Below are positions 35,611 through 64,000 of a stretch of 64,000 bases of DNA, one piece after another. This DNA is from Cheilinus undulatus (Eukaryota > Chordata > Actinopteri > Labriformes > Labridae). The stretch is from the NCBI RefSeq assembly GCF_018320785.1, contig NC_054868.1:212885-276884 (forward strand), read 5' to 3'. The notes beneath the pieces were generated by a model that was not told the origin of the DNA, did no database searches, and worked only from the letters and a program-made list of their open reading frames with translations. Each line of letters starts with the position of its first letter. Position 1 is the first letter of the stretch. The position numbers and the translations under genes were made by a program.

Positions 35611-38600
35611 ATGGGAGTGGACCACACGGAGCCGGAGGTCCCGGCTGACACGGTGGGAAGGCGGGTGTCCTGCGACGGGGAGCGGGCCACGGTGCGGTAC
35701 GTGGGCTCGGTGCCTCCGACATCAGGTAAACACACCTGAGATTATCTCTGCTCCTCACATCAGGTAAACACACCTGAGATTATCTCTGCTCCTCACATCA
35801 GGTAAACACACCTGAGATTATCTCTGCTCCTCACATCAGGTAAACACACCTGAGATTATCTCTGCTCCTCACATCAGGTAAACACACCTGAGATTATCTC
35901 TGCTCCTCACATCAGGTAAACACACCTGAGATTATCTCTGCTCCTCACATCAGGTAAACACACCTGAGATTATCTCTGCTCCTGAGTTATCTTACTTTAT
36001 GATGATTATGCAGGTAAACACAGCAGCCATAAATCAACAGTTCTTCATTCTCATCATGAACTGTTTCGACAGGACTCTTCTGGTCTACAGCTGCAGACCT
36101 CTCTGGTCACATGTTTGACCTTTAGATTAGTTTTTGTTGTTCTCAGAGGTCCTTAAACATGCCTGTGAAGTTTGTAGCTGTAAAAACACTCCAGTATTGA
36201 TTTCTGTGTGTCACTGTTACACTGGTTATATTTTATATCAGGGTTATCCAAACAACGGCTCCTGGGCCAACGGTGGCCCTTTTTCCAAAGCATTTAGGGT
36301 AATTTCTATTTAATTAGTGAACATTTGATTCATTTACATAAACAGCACGCTCTTTTTTTCTAGTAAAATTAGTGGAAAGGTTAAAAAACTGAATTCCAAA
36401 AAACATTAAAATGGAAAAAAACAGATTTTGGCAAAAACAAAACAAAAAAAAAAAAACAGATTTCATAGGGCCCTACATCTGCTTTGCAAGTAATTCTGAG
36501 CCTCCGATTTCCCCTCGTCTGTTTTACCTTTTTGCCAGTATGGATGTGAAATGGTATTTATTATTAAATTTGACTTGTTGAAACGTGCAGAGACCCTGAC
36601 CTGTTCCAATGCTGCCACAGAACCACTGCATATAGCCACTCTGCTCAGCCCAGCCTACGGCCACAGCAAACAGCTCAGCAGCAAACACACTAATGTGGTC
36701 GGATGTCCTCCTCCTGCACCCAGAATTAACAGCAGGTACTGCACCTGTGAGGGGCTCCTTTGACCCGTCAGTAAGAACTTGGACCCAGTCCTTATATCTG
36801 TGATGATAAAATTGGAGACTAAATCTGTGTTTTTATTGCTTTGCTGAACTTGCAGTAGCTCAAAGTCTACTGTTGGCTTCAGCCACAGAGGTCTTTCAGG
36901 CCGTAGTGAAGTCTCTGGAAACTCTCACACACCTTCTTCTTCCTTCTCCCAACACGCCTGCAGCACACTCATCACCTCAGAGCCAGCTGTTTCTGTGGCT
37001 TTAAATGTTACTGAGCTGTCTGACTCCACCCCTGCCAGGAAATGGATGTGGCTCTCCTGATCCTCCTCTCAGCTGCATAAAGATATTTTTATATTAAGAT
37101 CCTGTTATTTTCAGATATTTATTTAGTTGTGTTGTTCTATTTTTTATATTGTGTTTAATTTTTTTAGATTTATTTTGGACTTTTCGCCTTCGTTCTGATT
37201 TTAACAGGACAGTTGACGGTGTAGGGAATCATGAGGAGAAAGTCAGGAATACTGGGAGTATGAACCACTATTACTGAGTCTAACAGGGATGGCTGTCTTA
37301 GATCTGGGTCTTCTGTCTGTGGTTTTACTGCAGTCCTGTGTATCCTGGTACCAGGACAGTCCCAGCAGACTGACTCAAGCTGATTCTAATGTCGTGATCT
37401 CAAACACTAACCACGTGTGTGATGTGGTCCAGGGCTGTGGCTCGGTGTGGAGTGGGATAACCCAGAGAGAGGGAAACACGACGGCAGCCATGATGGAGTC
37501 CAGTTCTTCACATGCAGGTAGATGTGAGTGAGATCCGGCTTCTTCTGCTCCGTGAACGCTAAAAAAGTCTGACCGAGTTTCTGACCAATGTTTCAGACAC
37601 CCTAAGGGAGGCTCCTTTGTGCGTCCAGGTAAGGTGAGCTTCGGCGTGGATTACCTGACGGCGGTGGAGCAGAAGTACGTCTACGACACGGAGAAGAACT
37701 ACATCGAGTGGGAGGGGTGGAGCTCGAAGCTCAGGTAGGACCGTGGTACCTCAGCGTGGTTTGATAATGACCGAGGACGCCGTGGATCATATTTTAATCA
37801 TCCTCATTTCAGAATAAAAGTCCTGGATGTGGGGAACAAGCGTTGAATATCTGACTCATGCGTGCTCTCAGACTCATGAGACTGAGATTATCAGTGGGTC
37901 GGTGCTGCAGATTAAACACTTCTATATTTCCTGTCTCCAGGGCTGAACCATTTGGGAAAATAATCGAATTGCGATTTTTTTCACCCAACATTGCGATTAC
38001 AATTTAACGTATGATTATTCTTCAGGTTCCTCATCTGATAAACCATTCTATGTTATCACACACAAAGCTATTCCCCCCAGAAATTTATATCCAGTCTCCC
38101 AAAATCTACGAATAAATGTTTCTAAAAAAATAACTAAGAATTATGAAAGTGCCAAATAAACTTCTGAAAAATTTACATTTCTCAAATTTTCATGAAATTA
38201 CTTAAAAGTCTCAAAGTTATTTCCCCCAGAAATTTGAATCAAACTCCCCAAAACTTACAAATAAAAATGTTCAAAATTTACCAGAAATTTTCTGAACAAA
38301 TTTCTGAAGAAATTCAAATCAGATTCCCCAAATTTTACAAATGTATAAAATTTTCAAGAAGATACTGTAATTTTCTAAGCAACCCCCCCACCCCAATTCA
38401 AATCAAATTCCTTAAAATGTCAAAATACATTTCTCACATTTCCACAAAAATATTTTCAAATTTCATGAGCAAATTTCCCCCCAAATTCAAATCGCTCAAA
38501 CAAAAATCTCTTACTGCCATTATTTTGTCCTGTGGTATGAATTTTGATGCAAGGAGTGATGATTTTATGGATTTTTTATTTTGAAGAAGACAAAAATATA

Positions 38601-41600: not shown

Positions 41601-44600
41601 CATCCTCGCTACCTGACCCTCATCGACAGTAAGTCTTCCTGTTTCATTCTCCTAAGCAGGACTGTTGGACTGAAGACCCTGACCCGGTCTGCTCGGTTTT
41701 TCAGAGTATGGCGCTCCAGAAGAAGGCGAGCTGAAGAAGCCGGAGGAATTTGCTCTGAAAAACGAGCTGTTAAGTAAGTCCCGCCTCCTTTTCTCATTGG
41801 CCGATCACTGGGGGTCATCATTTAGACCCTGGTAGTTCTAAAGGGGGTCATCATTTAGATCCTGGTAGTTCTAAAGGGGGTCATCATTTAGACCCTGGTA
41901 GTTCTAAAGGGGGTCATCATTTAGATCCTGGTAGTTCTAAAGGGGGTCATCATTTAGACCCTGGTAGTTCTAAAGGGGGTCATCATTTAGACCCTGGTAG
42001 TTCTAAAGGGGGTCATCATTTAGACCCTGGTAGTTCTAAAGGGGGTCATCATTTAGACCCTGGTAGTTCTAAAGGGGGTCATCATTTAGACCCTGGTAGT
42101 TCTAAAGGTGGTCATCATTTAGATCCTGGTAGTTCTAAAGGGGGTCATCATTTAGACCCTGGTAGTTCTAAAGGGGGTCATCATTTAGACCCTGGTAGTT
42201 CTAAAGGGGGTCATCATTTAGACCCTGGTAGTTCTAAAGGGGGTCATCATTTAGACCCTGGGAATTCTAAAGGGGGTCATCATTTAGACCCTGGGAGTTC
42301 GAAAGGGGTCTGTATTTAGACCCTGGTAGTTCTAAATGGGGTCATCATTTAGCTCCGGGAAGTTCTAAAGGGGGTCTACATTAAGACCCTGGTAGTTCTA
42401 AAGGGAGTCATCATTTAGACCCTGTAAGTTCTAAAGGGGGTCATCATTTAGGCCCTGGTAGTTCTAAAAGGGGTCATCATTTAGACAGTGGTAGGTCTAA
42501 AAGGGGGTCATCATTTAGACCCTAGTAGTCCTAAAGGGGGTCATCATTTAGATCCTGGTAGTTCTAAAGGGGGTCATCATTTAGACCCTGGTAGTTCTAA
42601 AGGGGGTCATCATTTAGACCCTGGTAGTCCTAAAGGGGGTCATCATTTAGACCCTGGTAGTTCGAAGGGGGTCATCATTTAGACCCTGGTAGTTTTAAAG
42701 GGGGTCATCATTTAGACCCTGGTAGTTCTAAAGGGGGTCATCATTTAGACCCTGGTAGTTTTAAAGGGGGTCATCATTTAGACCCTGGTAGTTCTAAAGG
42801 GGGTCATCATTTAGACCCTGGTAGTTCTGAAGGGGGTCATCATTTAGACCCTAGTAGTTCTAAAGGGGGGTCATCATTTAGACCCTGGTAGTTCTAAAAG
42901 GGGTCATCATTTAGACCCTGGTAGTTCTAAAAGGGGGTCATCATTTAGACCCTAGTAGTCCTAAAGGGGGTCATCTTTTAGACCCTGGTAGTTCTAAAGG
43001 GGGTCATCATTTAGACCCTGGTAGTTCTAAAGGGGGTCATCATTTAGACCCTGGTAGTCCTAAAGGGGGTCATCATTTAGACCCTGGTAGTTCGAAGGGG
43101 GTCATCATTTAGACCCTGGTAGTTTTAAAGGGGGTCATCATTTAGACCCTGGTAGTTCTAAAGGGGGTCATCATTTAGACCCTGGTAGTTTTAAAGGGGG
43201 TCATCATTTAGACCCTGGTAGTTCTAAAGGGGGTCATCATTTAGACCCTGGTAGTTCTGAAGGGGGTCATCATTTAGACCCTAGTAGTTCTAAAGGGGGG
43301 TCATCATTTAGACCCTGGTAGTTCTAAAAGGGGTCATCATTTAGACCCTGGTAGTTCTAAAAGGGTGTCATCATTTAGACCCTGGTAGTTCTAAAAGGGG
43401 TCATCATTTAGACCCTGGTAGTTCTAAAAGGGGGTCATCATTTAGACCCTGGTAGTTCTGAAGGGGGTCATCATTTAGACCCTAGTAGTTCTAAAGGGGG
43501 GTCATCATTTAGACCCTGGTAGTTCTAAAGGGGGTCTTCATTTAGACCCTGGTAGTTCTAAAGGGGGTCATCATTTAGACCCTAGTAGTTCTAAAGGGGG
43601 TCATCATTTAGACCCTGGTAGTTCTAAAGGAGGTCATCTGTTAGACCCTGGTAGTTCTGAAGGGGGTCATCATTTAGACCCTGGTAGTCCTAAAGGGGGT
43701 CATCATTTAGACCCTGGTAGTTCTAAAGGGGGTCATCATTTAGACCCTGGTAGTTCTAAAGGGGTCATCATTTAGACCCTGGTAGTTCTAAAGGGGGGTC
43801 ATTATTTAGACCCTGGTAGTTCTAAAGGGGGTCATCATTTAGACCCTAGTAGTTCTAAAGGGGGTCATCATTTAGACCCTAGTTCTAAAGGGGGTCATTT
43901 TTTAGACCTGGGGATCAGCTGTGACCCGGAGAAAGAAGAGAAAACTTTATTTATCTTCTGGTCTTAGAGAGTCTGGCTTTACCAGAGGACAGTCCAGATC
44001 CACAGTCCAGATTCTTCAGTGGGGCTGTGGTCTTAGTGGGACTGTTCCAAAGTCTAGTCCTTTATCTGCATCAGTGGTGTTCAGAGTTAGACCAGATGAA
44101 TGTGATCTGATCAGATCTCTTCCTTTCCACCAGAGATCCTGTTCGTGTTCCCTGAAGATGCTGACAGGAAGTCGATAGAGAAGAAACTTCCAGGTAAAAC
44201 AGAAGAGACCTGACAGGATCAGACATGTGATGTTTAATGTAGACCACATAGGAGAGAACTAACCCTACCTCTGTTGTGGTCCAGCCTCCATGGTGATCCA
44301 GAAGGTGAAGGGCCTCCTCTACAGGCTGCTGAAGATCCCTGCAGTAGAACTGAAGCTCACCTACACCAGTCCAAAGGTAGTCCAGATCTGCTTTAGTCAC
44401 CAGTCCAAAGGTAGTCCAGATCTGCTTCAGTCACCAGTCCAAAGGTAGTCCAGATCTGCTTTAGTCACCAGTCCAAAGGTAGTCCTGATCTGCTGTAGTC
44501 ACCAGTCCAAAGGTAGTCCAGATCTGCTTCAGTCACCAGTCCAAAGGTAGTCCAGATCTGCTGTAGTCACCAGTCCAAAGGTAGTCCAGATCTGCTTCAG

Positions 44601-47600
44601 TCACCAGTCCAAAGGTAGTCCAGATCTGCTTCAGTCACCAGTCCAAAGGTAGTCCAGATCTGCTGTAGTCACCAGTCCAAAGGTAGTCCAGATCTGCTTT
44701 AGTCACCAGTCCAAAGGTAGTCCAGATCTGCTTCAGTCACCATTCCAAAGGTAGTCCACATCTGCTGTAGACACCAGTCCAAAAGTAGTCCAGATCTGCT
44801 TCAGTCACCAGTCCAAAGGTAGTCCAGATCTGCTTCAGTCACCAGTCCAAAGGTAGTCCAGATCTGCTGTAGTCACCAGTCCAAAGGTAGTCCAGATCTG
44901 CTTCAGTCACCATTCCAAAGGTAGTCCAGATCTGCTGTAGTCACCAGTCCAAAGGTAGTCTAGATCTGCTGTAGTCACCAGTCCAAAGGTAGTCCAGATC
45001 TGCTGTAGTCACCAGTCCAAAGGTAGTCCAGATCTGCTGTAGTCACCAGTCCAAAGGTAGTCCAGATCTGCTGTAGTCACCAGTCCAAAGGTAGTCCAGA
45101 TCTGCTGTAGTCACCAGTCCAAAGGTAGTCCAGATCTGCTGTAGTCACCAGTCCAAAGGTAGTCTAGATCTGCTGTAGTCACCAGTCCAAAGGTAGTCCA
45201 GATCTGCTTCAGTCACCAGTCCAAAGGTAGTCCAGATCTGCTGTAGTCACCAGTCCAAAGGTCGTTCTAATGCCTGTTAGACTTTAAAGGATGACATCAT
45301 CAAAGACAGGATATAGAAGGTTGGAGAAGCTGGGGATGTTGGGAACCTGAACCCTCAGAGGATCCTTTAGAATCCAACTCCATCTGAAATCAGCCACATC
45401 CTCAAAACTGCTGTAAAAATGATACTTTAATATTATTTCCACCTTAAAGAGTCAGTCTTGTCAAACTACTTCAGCCTGAAATATGTGAATCAAATAATAA
45501 TGATATGTAGAAATTTAAACCCTTGAAGGGCCAGTTTGGTTCCATAACCCCACTGTTTTTTTAATGAAAACACTTAAACTGCTGTAACTTGATTTTATTA
45601 TTAGATACACACAGAGTGTGTGTGAAGCTGGACATTAAAGAGACACACACACCCACACACACCCCATTATCCATCACCTACAGTGGCACACACTAACATT
45701 TCAGCTGCAGGATTCCTTTAAGAAAACTGTAGAAAGTGAGATTTTGTTGCACGCTTAGAGCGGGGAAAAGTAGCAGCATGTGGTTGACCAATATAAAAAT
45801 TAAAAACTGAAGGCCAGTAGTACAAAATTACATCCTGACATCAAGGAATGCATTAGTTTAAGTTCAGATAAATGTGGGATCAAAAATGGCATTTTCAGTG
45901 GTTTTTAATGGGGCCGTTTCTGTCTGAAGGAGCAAATGTGTCATTCTTTTCATAGTTTAGCCATTTTAGGCTAATTTAACCAACTGATACAACTGTCCAA
46001 AAATGTGTTCAAGATGAATATCCTCTGGTATATTTGAGCTTCATTCATTCTACACAGCCAACATGGCATGAAAATAAAACAGAATGTACAGAAAAAGGTC
46101 CCAGGATCCTCTGAGGGTAAAAATTGCTGTGCAGCCTGAGCAGTTATCATCTATTGTGGGAAACAAATGTATGATAGAACTTTTTTCTAGGGATGCGTGG
46201 TTAAACTTGTTGATCAAATAAGCTGGTGTGAGATTTACAGGTCAGTTAAAACGATCACCAATCATTTTTATAAACTGCTCTTTGATACTGAACCTCCTTC
46301 CACTAGAGGCCGCTGTAGCTTCAGTCAATGGCTGCTGCCCCCCCCCCGTCTGAGCTTTCCCATGGCGGGGGTTGCCAGGTCCACGGTTTTCCTGTGTGCT
46401 AAGCAGACACTGACGTGTATTTAATATCCAGAGTAGGGCTGAACGATGTAGATAAACAATCTAACTGCTGTTATTTTTCCAATTTATTTTTCCACAAGCA
46501 ATAAATCAGTTTTTATTAACAAGAGTACCATATTAGATAAAACTAGGAATACATAACTTTAAAAAAGAAAAGACATTTTCTTTCATATCTTTTCTTGTTA
46601 TTCTTGTTTTGAATAAGAAACGCACACACACGAGGGAGGAAAATAAGATTTTTGTAAAAAAAAAAAAAAAAATCCACAACAGAAACTCTGTTTGCATAGA
46701 GTGTAGAGCAGTGATACTCAACATGTGGCTCTTTAATGTCTTAATCTGAAATATTATTCCCCCAGAAAACCTTTAAAAAAACTTTTTTTTTAATTTGCCA
46801 TGTTCACCATTTTTGCCACTTTTTCCCCATTTATTCCACTGTAATCCAATTTTCTTACCCTTTTTCACCATTTTTGGCCCATTTAAGCAACATTTGCCGT
46901 TAAATATCACTTTTCAAATTTTTCCCTAAATTTTTCCTTCTTCTTTTTTTGCCACTTTTCCCCTTTTTTTTGCCTCTTTTCGTCTAAATAAGCTTCCTTT
47001 TGCCACTACATACCACTTGGTTCATATTGTCTTGCTCATTTTTGCTACTCATGACTGCTTTTTGCCCATTTTAGTCACTTTTTACTCTTTTTTTTGCCAC
47101 TTCTGAACCATTGTTGCTACTTTCTGACTTTTTTCCACATTTTCTCCCAATGTTCGCCCCCCTTTCATCCATTTTTGCCACCTTTAACTTATTTTGATTG
47201 TACTTATGCCGTTTTTGTCACTTTACACCTCTCAGATTGTGGCTCTTGTAAAGGTATTTTTCTGCAGGTTGAGTAACTCTGCTGTAGAGCATAAAACATC
47301 TACTCTAAAAACTCTATCTGGTATTCTGACACATTTCAGGTTGCAGAAATATTACACTGTCTGTGATTAGAATATTACAGCAGGCCAGATTCTGATTTAA
47401 TCCAGAGTGGAATAAACGGCCTCATTTACCCCAGATAGAACCAAATCAACCAGCAGAGAACAGAGATCTGCGGTGCCACACTGGCACATAGACACACACA
47501 CGCCACACACAGAAGCAGCACACCTGCACACACACACGTGAAAAACACGAGGTGTGGCAGAGGTTTGACTGGCGTGTGTTAAATTTCAGCGTTGGGCTGG

Positions 47601-48155
47601 TTTTTATCGGCCGCTGGGGTGGATTTGTCACCCAGACCTGGCAACCCTGAAGTATGAGGAGCTCAGCGCTAGCTTAGCGGTTAGCGTGTAGCAGGAACAG
47701 CACGGTCTGACAGGTTTTTAACTAGTAAATGGAATAAAGTGGTATGCAGGCTAACTACTACCCAGAGTGAAAAGAGGAAACACAGCTGATAGTGAGATTG
47801 ATCTACAGAGGAACGAAGGCTGGGGGAGCTAGCTGCTAACGTTAGCCTCGCTGTAGAGAGGATACCAGGCTCACACGGCCGCTGACACAGGGACTGTTTC
47901 TGAGGATTTTCTCCTCTTTAGACCCGTCAGGTAAACACAGTTTGACTCTGAACGGAGAAACAGGCGTTTAGGAACACCCCTACCTGCCTCCCTTTATTTA
48001 TTTATCTCTAAGTAGGCTGAAAAGAGCCAGCCGTACTAACGTCAGCCTTCTTATTCCAGATGGAGGGGACAGAGTTTGAGATCGACAACGACCTGAAGTC
48101 TCTGCGGTTTTACTCCATCGAGGACGGGGACCGTGTCCTGGTCCGCTGGTCCTGA
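35611..48155 (+). CDS. tbce: Tbce, tubulin-folding cofactor E
   Basis: Coding exons 35611-35725, 37433-37517, 37597-37734, (doubtful 37813-37842), 38835-38920, 39048-39147, 39226-39328, 39438-39514, 39597-39689, 40965-41029, 41105-41169, 41258-41410, 41490-41628, 41705-41773, 44134-44193, 44285-44376, 48060-48155. Without the doubtful exon they give 1536 nt and 511 residues (human TBCE 527). TBCE binds alpha-tubulin in the cofactor pathway that assembles alpha/beta heterodimers. The CAP-Gly domain shows [18 protein letters not shown] and [13 protein letters not shown]; leucine-rich repeats follow ([44 protein letters not shown]); the C-terminal ubiquitin-like domain has [15 protein letters not shown] and [23 protein letters not shown] 35611 is chosen from the N-terminal length of relatives; an in-frame ATG at 35569 also exists. 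The missing residues fall between exons 3 and 5. Confidence 0.93.
35719..35990 (+). repeat. 38-bp array that copies the tbce exon-1 splice donor
   Basis: Seven units start at 35719, 35757, 35795, 35833, 35871, 35909 and 35947. The first overlaps the last seven bases of coding exon 1 (ACATCAG) and its donor GTAAAC, so every unit repeats ACATCAG/GTAAACACACC. Units look identical. Read-through from exon 1 meets a TGA within five codons. Confidence 0.95.
36240..37080. mobile_element. dispersed repeats in tbce intron 1
   Basis: From about 36870 the sequence is an inverted relative of the insert at 32816-33135: AGCTGTTTCTGTGGCTTTAA and GAGCTGTCTGACTCCACCCC both have counterparts there. The stretch 36240-36480 has A-rich, low-complexity DNA. 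The piece 36580-36780 is not recognised; its open frame has no domain I can name. Boundaries approximate. Confidence 0.45.
37813..37842 (+). other. tbce: candidate tbce exon 4, no usable donor
   Basis: After a good acceptor (CTCATTTCAG) the sequence, in phase with exon 3, reads [10 protein letters not shown], similar to the human TBCE stretch before GFDSI. It then hits TGA one codon later. No GT donor in the required phase follows AAGCG (the next bases are TTGAAT). Skipping it joins exon 3 to exon 5 in frame, with loss of about 16 residues relative to human. It may be a real exon damaged by a small indel or sequence error, an exon whose end I misplaced, or a decaying exon. Confidence 0.4.
37938..38821. 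mobile_element. 884-bp hAT-like element next to the tbce exon-5 acceptor
   Basis: Ends are CAGGGCTG and CAGCCCTA (inverted). The direct repeat CCTGTCTC flanks the element exactly (37930-37937 and 38822-38829). The right copy is followed by CACAG and exon 5, so the element landed inside the polypyrimidine tract and duplicated it. The interior is AT-rich with no transposase. Confidence 0.85.
39832..40237. repeat. 39-bp minisatellite, about 10 copies, tbce intron
   Basis: The unit GTTCAGATCCTCTCCTCAGG plus TCTTAGTTGAAGCTCTGTA is repeated about ten times with one T-to-C variant (TTAGCTGAAG). It lies between tbce exons 39597-39689 and 40965-41029. Confidence 0.95.
40326..40905 (-). mobile_element. 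Tc1-like transposase fragment
   Basis: The minus strand encodes [20 protein letters not shown] followed by TGRLVR, then [20 protein letters not shown] and KWIRDSE. These are the Tc1 transposase catalytic-core blocks around the second and third DDE acidic residues ([10 protein letters not shown] equals the usual QQDNDPKHTA). The N-terminal DNA-binding part and the end are lost, and a stretch around [10 protein letters not shown] is altered or frame-changed. The fragment opposes tbce, in its intron. Confidence 0.85.
41811..43910. repeat. 33-bp minisatellite, about 63 copies, tbce intron
   Basis: The unit TCATCATTTAGACCCTGGTA plus GTTCTAAAGGGGG, with many point variants and single-base G-run length changes. 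A roughly 430-bp block starting about 42501 is repeated almost exactly from about 42931: the variant series CTAGTAGTCC, then GTAGTCC, TTCGAAGGGG and AGTTTTAAAG recurs in the same order. Begins about 37 nt after the donor of exon 41705-41773. Confidence 0.95.
44363..45262 (+). repeat. 34-bp array that copies the tbce exon-16 splice donor
   Basis: The unit CCAGTCCAAAGGTAGTCCAG plus ATCTGCTTTAGTCA is repeated about 26 times. The first unit overlaps the last exonic bases (CACCAGTCCAAAG) and the donor GTAGTC of exon 44285-44376. Variants: TTTAG/TTCAG/TGTAG, CATTCC, and TCTAGATC. Units are 34 bp, so use of downstream donors shifts frame by 34n nt; a TAG appears at the third unit. Confidence 0.95.
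45263..46708. other. tbce last intron, left part, no gene
   Basis: Contains an ACACAC-rich stretch near 45640 and a poly-C tract near 46340, with short non-homologous open frames. A repeat-like GGGATGCGTGG occurs near 46192. No exon recognised. Confidence 0.45.
46709..47281. mobile_element. 573-bp hAT-like MITE with near-perfect 8-bp target duplication
   Basis: The left end is CAGTGATACTCAACATGTGG and the right end CAGGTTGAGTAACTCTG (reverse complement CAGAGTTACTCAACCTG). Flanks GTGTAGAG (46701-46708) and CTGTAGAG (47282-47289) are 7/8 identical and fit NTNTAGAN. The interior is TTTTTGCCACTTTT-rich, the inverted form of the copies at 13.2, 20.9 and 33.4 kb. Of the copies in the window it has the clearest termini. 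Lies in the last tbce intron. Confidence 0.85.
47290..48059. other. tbce last intron, right part, no gene
   Basis: Single-copy-looking DNA with a CA-rich stretch at about 47495-47540, leading into the acceptor TTATTCCAG of the final tbce exon. Nothing else recognised. Confidence 0.45.
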
Positions 48156-60500: not shown

Positions 60501-61891
60501 GATCAATAAACCAATCACACAATCAACCAAATCAGCCGACCAACCAATCTGTCAGTTAACAAACCAGACAATCAATCAATAAACCATCCAGCTGACCTTC
60601 CTACCGATCAACCATCCAACCACTGAACCATTAAAAATGACCTACAAATCAATAAACCATCCAACCATCGAACACACAATAAATGAATCAACCAACCACC
60701 CAGTCAACATCCATCCAATCAATCCATCAGTCAATTAATAAATCCACGTCAACCAACCAACCTGCCTATCATTTCACCAATCAACTATCTGTCCATCCAA
60801 CCAACCCATCAACCAACCAACCAACCAGTCCACCAACCAACCAACAAACTAAACATCCAACCAGCCAACCCATCAACCAACCATTCCACCAATCCATCAA
60901 CCAACCAACCATTCCACTAGTCCACCAACCAACCAACCAAACATCCAACCAGCCAACCCATCAACCAACCATTCCACCAATCCATCAACCAACCAACCAT
61001 TCCACTAGTCCACCAACCAACCAACCAAACATCCAACCAGCCAACCCATCAACCAACCATTCCACCAATCCATCAACCAACCAACCATTCCACTAGTCCA
61101 CCAACCAACCAACCAAACATCCAACCAGCCAACCCATCAACCAACCATTCCACCAATCCATCAACCAACCAACCATTCCACTAGTCCACCAACCAACCAA
61201 CCAAACATCCAACCAGCCAACCCATCAACCAACCATTCCACCAATCCATCAACCAACCAACCATTCCACTAGTCCACCAACCAACCAACCAAACATCCAA
61301 CCAGCCAACCCATCAACCAACCATTCCACCAATCCATCAACCAACCAACCATTCCACTAGTCCACCAACCAACCAACCAAACATCCAACCAGCCAACCCA
61401 TCAACCAACCAACCAAACATCCAACCAGCCAACCAACCAACCAAACATCCAACCAGCCAACCCATCAACCAACCATTCCACCAATCCATCAACCAACCAA
61501 CCATTCCACTAGTCCACCAACCAACCAACCAACCAACCAACCAGCCAATCCATCAACCAACCAACCAACCAACCAACCAACCAACCATTCCACTAGTCCA
61601 CCAGCCATCCAACCAACCAGCTGTTCACCATCAGTGAGACACAAATAAACACGAGGACCAACAGCATCATGATGGTCTCTGGGTAGAGGATCTAACTGAT
61701 TCTGTGGTGGGGGTTTGGGTCAAGGTGTCTCACCTGCATCTGCCCAGCACAGCTGCTGATTGTCAGGGTCAAAGGTCAGACCATTTGGAAGCCCCAGCTC
61801 ATCCTTTACCAGCACGGTCCTGTCTGTCCCATCCATGTTGGACATCTCAATCTTTGGTCCGTCTCTGTTCCAGTCCGCCCAGAAGATCCGT
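57549..61891 (-). CDS. nid1: Nid1 (nidogen-1/entactin), last four coding exons (5' part outside window)
   Basis: Exons in transcript order 61891-61734, 60479-60356, 60053-59941, 57667-57549, phases all compatible; about 170 C-terminal residues and the stop. Nidogen-1 is a secreted basement-membrane protein linking laminin and collagen IV. The first two exons carry YWTD-type LDL-receptor class B beta-propeller repeats: [38 protein letters not shown], then [20 protein letters not shown]. The third has [14 protein letters not shown]. The last encodes a complete six-cysteine EGF-like module, [20 protein letters not shown] followed by FTCRCPD and SCEERNL, ending the protein as in human NID1. Linkage to tbce favours nid1 over nid2. 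Confidence 0.9.
57668..59940. other. nid1 last intron, with a hAT-like end
   Basis: Mostly unrecognised. At about 58660 the sequence GCAGTGGTTCTCAACTGGTG followed by GGTCAGGACCC is a hAT-Charlie-type terminus, but I could not find a matching opposite end. A poly-C tract lies at about 59410-59423. Confidence 0.45.
60580..61615. repeat. CCAACC-rich array with 88-bp higher-order unit, nid1 intron
   Basis: A CCAAC/CCAT-rich tetranucleotide-like field. From about 60880 it is organised in 88-bp units marked by ATTCCACTAGTCCACCAACC (starts at 60911, 60999, 61087 and onward), about six near-identical copies before the pattern loosens. Lies between nid1 exons 61891-61734 and 60479-60356. Confidence 0.9.
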
Positions 61892-61908
61892 CTGCAGCGC
61901 CATAACAA

Positions 61909-64000
61909 AACCAGTTAGACCAGCCTGAGACCATTATCACCAGTGAGACCAGTCTGAGACCATTATCACCAGTGAGACCAGTCTGAGACCATTATCACCA
62001 GTGAGACCAGTCTGAGACCATTATCACCAGTGAGACCAGTCTGAGACCATTATCACCAGTTAGACCAGCCTGAGACCATTATCACCAGTGAGACCAGTCT
62101 GAGACCATTATCACCAGTGAGACTAGTCTGAGACCATTATCACCAGTGAGACCAGTCTGAGACCATTATCACCAGTGAGACCAGTCTGAGACCATTATCA
62201 CCAGTTAGACCAGCCTGAGACCATTATCACCAGTGAGACCAGTCTGAGACCATTATCACCAGTGAGACCAGTCTGAGACCATTATCACCAGTTAGACCAG
62301 CCTGAGACCATTATCACCAGTGAGACTAGTCTGAGACCATTATCACCAGTGAGACCAGTCTGAGACCATTATCACCAGTTAGACCAGCCTGAGACCATTA
62401 TCACCAGTGAGACCAGTCTGAGACCATTATCACCAGTGAGACCAGTCTGAGACCATTATCACCAGTGAGACTAGTCTGAGACCATTATCACCAGTGAGAC
62501 CAGTCTGAGACCATTATCACCAGTGAGACCAGTCTGAGACCATTATCACCAGTGAGACTAGTCTGAGACCATTATCACCAGTGAGACCAGTCTGAGACCA
62601 TTATCACCAGTGAGACCAGTCTGAGACCATTATCACCAGTGAGACCAGTCTGAGACCATTATCACCAGTTAGACCAGCCTGAGACCATTATCACCAGTGA
62701 GACTAGTCTGAGACCATTATCACCAGTGAGACCAGTCTGAGACCATTATCACCAGTTAGACCAGCCTGAGACCATTATCACCAGTGAGACCAGTCTGAGA
62801 CCATTATCACCAGTGAGACCAGTCTGAGACCATTATCACCAGTGAGACCAGTCTGAGACCATTATCACCAGTGAGACCAGTCTGAGACCATTATCACCAG
62901 TTAGACCAGCCTGAGACCATTATCACCAGTGAGACTAGTCTGAGACCATTATCACCAGTGAGACCAGTCTGAGACCATTATCACCAGTTAGACCAGCCTG
63001 AGACCATTATCACCAGTGAGACCAGTCTGAGACAATTATCACCAGTTAGACCAGCCTGAGACCATTATCACCAGTGAGACCAGTCTGAGACCATTATCAC
63101 CAGTGAGACCAGTCTGAGACCATTATCACCAGTTAGACCAGCCTGAGACCATTATCACCAGTGAGACTAGTCTGAGACCATTATCACCAGTGAGACCAGT
63201 CTGAGACCATTATCACCAGTGAGACCAGTCTGAGACCATTATCACCAGTTAGACCAGCCTGAGACCATTATCACCAGTGAGACTAGTCTGAGACCATTAT
63301 CACCAGTGAGACCAGTCTGAGACCATTATCACCAGTTAGACCAGCCTGAGACCATTATCACCAGTGAGACCAGTCTGAGACCATTATCACCAGTGAGACC
63401 AGTCTGAGACCATTATCACCAGTGAGACCAGTCTGAGACCATTATCACCAGTGAGACCAGTCTGAGACCATTATCACCAGTGAGACTAGTCTGAGACCAT
63501 TATCACCAGTGAGACCAGTCTGAGACCATTATCACCAGTGAGACCAGTCTGAGACAATTATCACCAGTTAGACCAGCCTGAGACCATTATCACCAGTGAG
63601 ACCAGTCTGAGACCATTATCACCAGTGAGACCAGTCTGAGACCATTATCACCAGTTAGACCAGCCTGAGACCATTATCACCAGTGAGACTAGTCTGAGAC
63701 CATTATCACCAGTGAGACCAGTCTGAGACCATTATCACCAGTTAGACCAGCCTGAGACCATTATCACCAGTGAGACTAGTCTGAGACCATTATCACCAGT
63801 GAGACTAGCCTGAGACCATTATCACCAGTGAGACTAGTCTGAGACCATTATCACCAGTGAGACCAGTCTGAGACCATTATCACCAGTTAGACCAGCCTGA
63901 GACCATTATCACCAGTGAGACCAGTCTGAGACCATTATCACCAGTGAGACCAGTCTGAGACCATTATCACCAGTGAGACCAGTCTGAGACCATTATCACC
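61909..64000. repeat. 29-bp array, about 72 copies, runs off the window
   Basis: The unit AGACCAGTCTGAGACCATTA plus TCACCAGTG in strict 29-bp register. Three unit types (GTGAGACCAGTCTG, GTTAGACCAGCCTG, GTGAGACTAGTCTG) recur in repeated orders, plus two ACAATTATC variants in the same context (about 63034 and 63554). It lies in the nid1 intron upstream of exon 61891-61734, starting less than 20 nt from that exon's acceptor. Confidence 0.97.

Follow-up and report, generated by a model that had tools for sequence, protein, structure and literature searches.

What becomes of an exon when its 5' splice site, together with the exon end, has been copied over and over into the intron that follows? The question is raised by tbce, which occupies about 35.6 to 48.15 kb on the plus strand of a 64,000-nt stretch of the Cheilinus undulatus genome (C4:212885-276884, in an assembly of 1.17 Gb and 46 contigs; the whole stretch is hereafter the window, and positions are given within it). 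Here we confirm that a 34-bp minisatellite starts inside exon 16 of this gene and repeats the exon end and its donor in each of its units. Judged from the sequence, a donor-spanning duplication probably grew to 26 copies, with the first donor normally used and the other 26 donor-like sites mostly tolerated as passengers.

The exon 16 donor and its copies

The tbce exons were placed by tblastn with a human TBCE query; the placement is partial, with internal exon(s) left unplaced, and the numbers 16 and 17 are our assumption, adopted from an earlier first-pass annotation of this DNA and from human TBCE. The gene carries a Pfam CAP_GLY match (E 2e-24), and in a phmmer search of PDB four distinct sequences match the exon 16 stretch, every one of them named TBCE (best E 5e-8). 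Joined together, exons 16 and 17 match Pfam Ubiquitin_2 with an E of 1e-4, exactly at the family cut-off. The elements concerned, in which a slash marks the exon boundary, are these:

44285..44376, plus strand: tbce exon 16, the penultimate coding exon found, 92 nt, ending in phase 0 (tblastn, PDB TBCE match; acceptor ..GGTCCAG/)
44377..44382, plus strand: authentic exon 16 donor GTAGTC (AAG/GTAGTC), predicted U1 duplex -6.3 kcal/mol
44364..45262, plus strand: 34-bp minisatellite, 26.4 copies, 95% matches (Tandem Repeats Finder, TRF, and unit table), its first 13 nt being the last 13 of exon 16
45248..45281, plus strand: 27th copy, partial, closing the array, AAG/GTCGTT, with 23 of 34 positions as in the unit (unit table)
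48060..48152, to 48155 including TGA, plus strand: last coding exon found, completing the protein (tblastn)

Head-to-tail units of 34 bp in 26.4 copies place the array among the minisatellites, a class whose units, of about 10-100 bp, are repeated many times. Intron 16 is 3,683 nt long and has the array as its first 886 nt; from there it is about 2.8 kb to the acceptor of exon 17. Units 1-26 share the start CACCA(G/T)TCCAAA(G/A)GTAGTC, and the exact 9-mer AAG/GTAGTC is present in all of the 26 full units except unit 13, which reads AAA/GTAGTC. Beyond the real donor there are thus 24 more exact 9-mers and two variants that are weaker, which bears out the first-pass claim that the exon end and donor had been copied about 26 times, as the unit table and TRF bear out its claim that the last 13 exonic bases and GTAGTC belong to the unit. 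The predicted U1 pairing is the same -6.3 kcal/mol for every exact copy, within a span of -5.0 to -10.7 kcal/mol for the 14 tbce donors listed. The overlap of exon and array is not a matter of chance, because the 13 exonic bases recur at exact 34-bp spacing and AAGGTAGTC is absent elsewhere in the window on both strands.

Arrays are difficult to assemble, and a misplaced array or an inflated copy number might in principle produce such a picture. We regard this as scarcely credible here: the unit variants are interspersed in an irregular order, which argues against simple duplication during assembly, the array joins exon 16 seamlessly, and arrays placed at exon ends in the same way are present on other contigs.

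A dispersed repeat at 45261-45347 starts at, or at most 16 nt from, the array end. Its relatives in the genome number at least 40 places at 77-89% identity, plus a series of additional matches within a single array on contig C22.

Reading frame and the predicted fate of misspliced transcripts

Splicing from the first donor yields TSPK/MEGTEF... and a complete ubiquitin-like domain. The normal C-terminus needs this donor, because all 26 alternatives lead to a frameshift or a stop. Retention of 34 or 68 nt changes the reading frame, and from 102 nt on a stop codon within the array is in frame, so that the frame arithmetic of the first-pass annotation holds throughout:

44446..44448, plus strand: TAG, in frame once at least three extra units are retained (computed translation)

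Where these stops fall relative to the last exon junction matters for the fate of the mRNA. By the usual rule a stop triggers mRNA decay when the last junction is over 50-55 nt further downstream, and exon 17 is the last exon in human TBCE. With copies 2 and 3 of the donor, translation would end 17 and 34 nt past the start of the following exon; with copy 4 it would end 33 nt short of the junction, and with copies 5-27 at 67 to 815 nt short of it. Should exon 17 be the last one here too, use of copies 2-4 should escape decay and use of copy 5 onward should generate decay substrates.

This modifies the proposal, made when the array was first noticed, that the copies may compete for U1 and act as a tunable brake, a steady misspliced fraction scaling with copy number and tbce output dropping as the array lengthens. 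The competition has a physical basis in the 24 identical donors of equal predicted duplex energy, and copies 5-27 would indeed feed decay if exon 17 is last. Tuning through decay is not supported, in that the three nearest competitor donors should escape it, and on the same condition the decay-based model has to be corrected for them. We consider a brake of this kind unlikely.

Donor-spanning arrays in other genes

The same relationship of array to exon was found elsewhere. The sample comprised 57 arrays (unit at least 14, at least 2.4 copies, TRF score at least 90) from 124 kb at this end of the chromosome and from 21 other loci (L039-L052, L002-L008). Eleven had been fetched for a donor-like triple motif (one of these split as L043 and L044), one is the exon 16 array and 45 were unchosen. 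Shorter or weaker arrays fall outside the 57, as do those whose best TRF row failed the filter, among them the main L046 array; L041, L049, L005 and L008 hold no array that passes, and the motif places of L041 and L049 are thus not counted.

In six of the 57 the exon end clearly holds the array start, 7-27 nt inside: two in tbce, two in selenos (selenos_a and selenos_b), one in trip12 and one in a TBC-domain gene. Two more, rrbp1-like and opsin-like, are borderline. Apart from exon 16 and the rrbp1-like case, the arrays are:

35719..35983, plus strand: donor-spanning array of tbce exon 2 (exon end 35725), 38 bp x 7.0, 100% matches (TRF)
L042 4319-5067 and 3771-3953, minus strand: selenos, two successive exons, each ending within its own minisatellite (Pfam, TRF)
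L045 3794-3947, minus strand: trip12, donor-spanning
L004 2662-2902, minus strand: TBC-domain gene, donor-spanning
L051 3560-3620, plus strand: opsin-like exon, its donor overlapped by a degenerate copy of the array (equalled by 1 of 300 shuffles)

The exon 2 array of tbce starts with the last 7 nt of the exon (ACATCAG/GTAAAC) and supplies six further donor copies, any of which, if used, would bring in a stop near the beginning of tbce, 12 nt after the first donor. The selenos exons match Pfam Selenoprotein_S at profile positions 111-137 (E 2e-11) and, below the Pfam cut-off, 143-167 (E 0.006); the trip12 exon matches PDB 9gkm (E 4e-21) and the TBC-domain exon its Pfam family (E 6e-13). In selenos_a each of the first four extra units has 21 nt, free of stops and preserving the frame (VSLRAAQ), and use of their donors would make the protein longer. 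While selenos_a and trip12 were chosen by motif, tbce exon 2, selenos_b and the TBC-domain gene were not. Both borderline arrays were motif-chosen, via a motif on the opposite strand. The rrbp1-like array (L050; the name is presumed) begins at the last exon base, an overlap of 1 nt by TRF, and its exon is without a relevant match in Pfam, NCBIfam or PDB; the opsin-like exon matches 7tm_1 (E 4e-5) below the Pfam cut-off.

Several candidates were set aside. The exon-like stretch of L007 stops, by eye, several tens of nt short of the array, and that of L046 has no Pfam match; the repeat in L052 lies within an open frame. By eye, no convincing exon was seen upstream of the array in L039, L047 or L048, and in L040 none could be supported.

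Were only the first donor under selection, the later copies would be expected to weaken. Donors were scored with a splice-donor matrix in seven arrays, the six above and rrbp1-like, the stretch being widened for trip12, whose fourth later copy sits past the TRF array end, and the rrbp1-like overlap including 9 nt added to the array end. In none of the seven does a later copy score above the first. Every later copy is weaker in three, as that expectation has it: selenos_b (4/4), rrbp1-like (89/89) and the TBC-domain gene (6/6, one of which is still a fair donor by look). Later copies equal the first in tbce exon 2 (6/6), tbce exon 16 (24/26), selenos_a (35/36) and trip12 (2/4), and these four arrays do not discriminate. 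The three arrays with uniformly weaker copies also count against the brake.

A different role for the copies is conceivable, in which many weak U1 sites just 3' of a weak donor boost U1 recruitment and the definition of exon 16, or guard intron 16 from premature polyadenylation. In the list of 14 tbce donors the exon 16 donor ranks third from the weak end by matrix score, and sixth by U1 duplex energy. Moreover, the donor 9-mer has one non-consensus letter in 234 across the units as against 26 in 390 elsewhere, although 21 of the 26 fall in two columns, and independent changes bearing on selection of the later donors are few; recent expansion also explains the low variation. Other arrays sit on strong donors (CAG/GTGAGT in selenos) or have weaker later donors, so no general need for a helper shows, and we think it improbable that the array serves as one.

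Are donors struck by arrays more often than chance, or than acceptors, would predict? A coding-score scan was made symmetrically, at both array ends and on both strands, and gave scores above 0 in 96 donor-side and 98 acceptor-side entries; exons of low coding score would escape it on both sides. Seven of the 16 best donor-side entries are the six donor arrays and rrbp1-like. The 16 best acceptor-side entries comprise seven that run antisense to exons of the opposite strand, two exons and seven weak entries (3.9 to 5.4) that are unexplained, and none of them was seen to have an exon start inside the far end of the array. At the two exons, which we take to be RBM34-like and NID1-like, the array stops about 20 nt before the acceptor by a hand count.

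Donor overlap in three of the 45 unchosen arrays has a Poisson P of 0.002, or 0.04 at three times the exon density, on an assumed 215,000 donors (an order of magnitude) and an assumed 30-nt target; it should be noted that one of the three, selenos_b, shares its gene with a chosen array, and that some of the 45 are themselves neighbours of arrays that were chosen. In tbce taken alone two of four arrays lie on donors (P 0.006), or one of three (P 0.10) with the exon 16 array excluded. Donors against acceptors stand at 6:0 overall (P 0.03) and at 3:0 among unchosen arrays (P 0.25). Taken together this does no more than suggest that donors are hit more often than at random. Searching the whole genome for three AGGTRAGT set 11-41 nt apart returned 991 + 2354 matches, while the reversed motif gave 1139 + 852; this was rejected as a measure of enrichment because overlapping matches inside large arrays were counted, with only the first places listed, and because a large share of the AGGTRAGT sites in any genome are, by our own estimate, real donors, so that adjacent exons are partly built in.

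The neighbourhood of tbce is itself dense in minisatellites. Across the window (1-64000) and L053-L058 the gene order is striatin, TOMM20, RBM34, tbce and NID1-like, in which striatin and MAS20 are named by Pfam, and the names RBM34 and NID1 are our presumption. Within tbce a 33-bp x 63.6 array at 41810-43908 starts about 37 nt 3' of a donor and leaves the exon untouched. Further on, a NID1-like exon (61729-61899, minus strand; Pfam Ldl_recept_b) is wedged between minisatellites at 60793-61615 and 61910-64000.

Probable origin of the array and its known counterparts

How might such an array have come about, and why would the first donor prevail? Most likely, slippage or unequal exchange duplicated a segment across the boundary of exon 16 and intron 16 in this minisatellite-rich region, and the segment would then have expanded to 26 copies. 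The original donor would stay in use through exon definition, an established concept in splicing, because it alone ends a full-length exon of the normal 92 nt with its acceptor and exon signals; the later copies would be pseudo-sites. Occasional use of copies 2-4 would give tbce with a scrambled C-terminal ubiquitin-like domain from an mRNA that is not degraded, whereas an mRNA spliced from copies 5-27 would be degraded. The 124 kb at this end of the chromosome contain 25 of the 57 arrays, and with arrays so common, that one should span some donor needs no special function. From the sequence we infer both first-donor use and the near-neutrality of the later donors.

Three points weigh against this account. 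In work by Eperon from 1993 with two sites, the downstream one of equal sites reportedly can win. The evidence from donor strength is mixed: later donors are intact in tbce exon 16, tbce exon 2 and selenos_a, and weakening supports the account in only three of seven arrays. Finally, downstream repeat donors are used in human IFI6, as described in PMC4526556.

The IFI6 comparison bears on a further alternative, that the tbce array produces regulated isoforms. Starting 13 nt inside the exon, with 25 of 26 units holding the exact donor 9-mer, the tbce array has the structure of a donor-providing minisatellite of the IFI6 type. The IFI6 minisatellite likewise sits at an exon end with units carrying splice donors; its unit is short and keeps the frame, a difference not essential to the type, whereas the tbce unit of 34 bp (34 mod 3 = 1) brings stops. 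In IFI6 two downstream units are used, giving three mRNA species (PMC4526556), whereas the tbce copies are putative donors. This precedent, and the open in-frame units of selenos_a, speak for regulated isoforms; set against them, the tbce unit is out of frame and each downstream donor loses the normal C-terminus, which makes regulated tbce isoforms very unlikely.

A second parallel is intron gain by tandem duplication, for which a fission-yeast case with a 24-bp segment duplicated in tandem multiple times has been described (PMC4974935). Tandem copying of sequence that holds splice signals is common to both. In tbce, however, no new intron is seen: intron gain would take both intron ends from the duplicated segment, and the exon 17 acceptor, TTATTCCAG with its last base at 48059, is not part of the array and by eye is no copy of the unit. 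In unit size and copy number the tbce arrays resemble the other arrays examined; 49 of the 57 lack a start inside or at a recognised exon end, which is where the donor-spanning arrays start.

Thus a minisatellite that supplies donors is already known from IFI6, and tbce adds an out-of-frame example. Recurrence across genes may be new; a limited literature search found no report of it, or of donor arrays in fish. We would venture, with considerable doubt, the broader idea that minisatellites in this genome arise preferentially at 5' splice sites and not at 3' splice sites, that natural rows of a few to nearly 90 donors show the first to be nearly always taken, and that in-frame units, such as the first ones of selenos, could let array length tune protein length. 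To our knowledge, most studies of how one of several equally good donors is chosen have relied on built constructs. With unit lengths and frames that vary between genes, exons trailed by as many as dozens of copies of their own donor offer natural tests of whether the first or a downstream site wins, and if donors really seed arrays more than acceptors do, this bears on how minisatellites are born.

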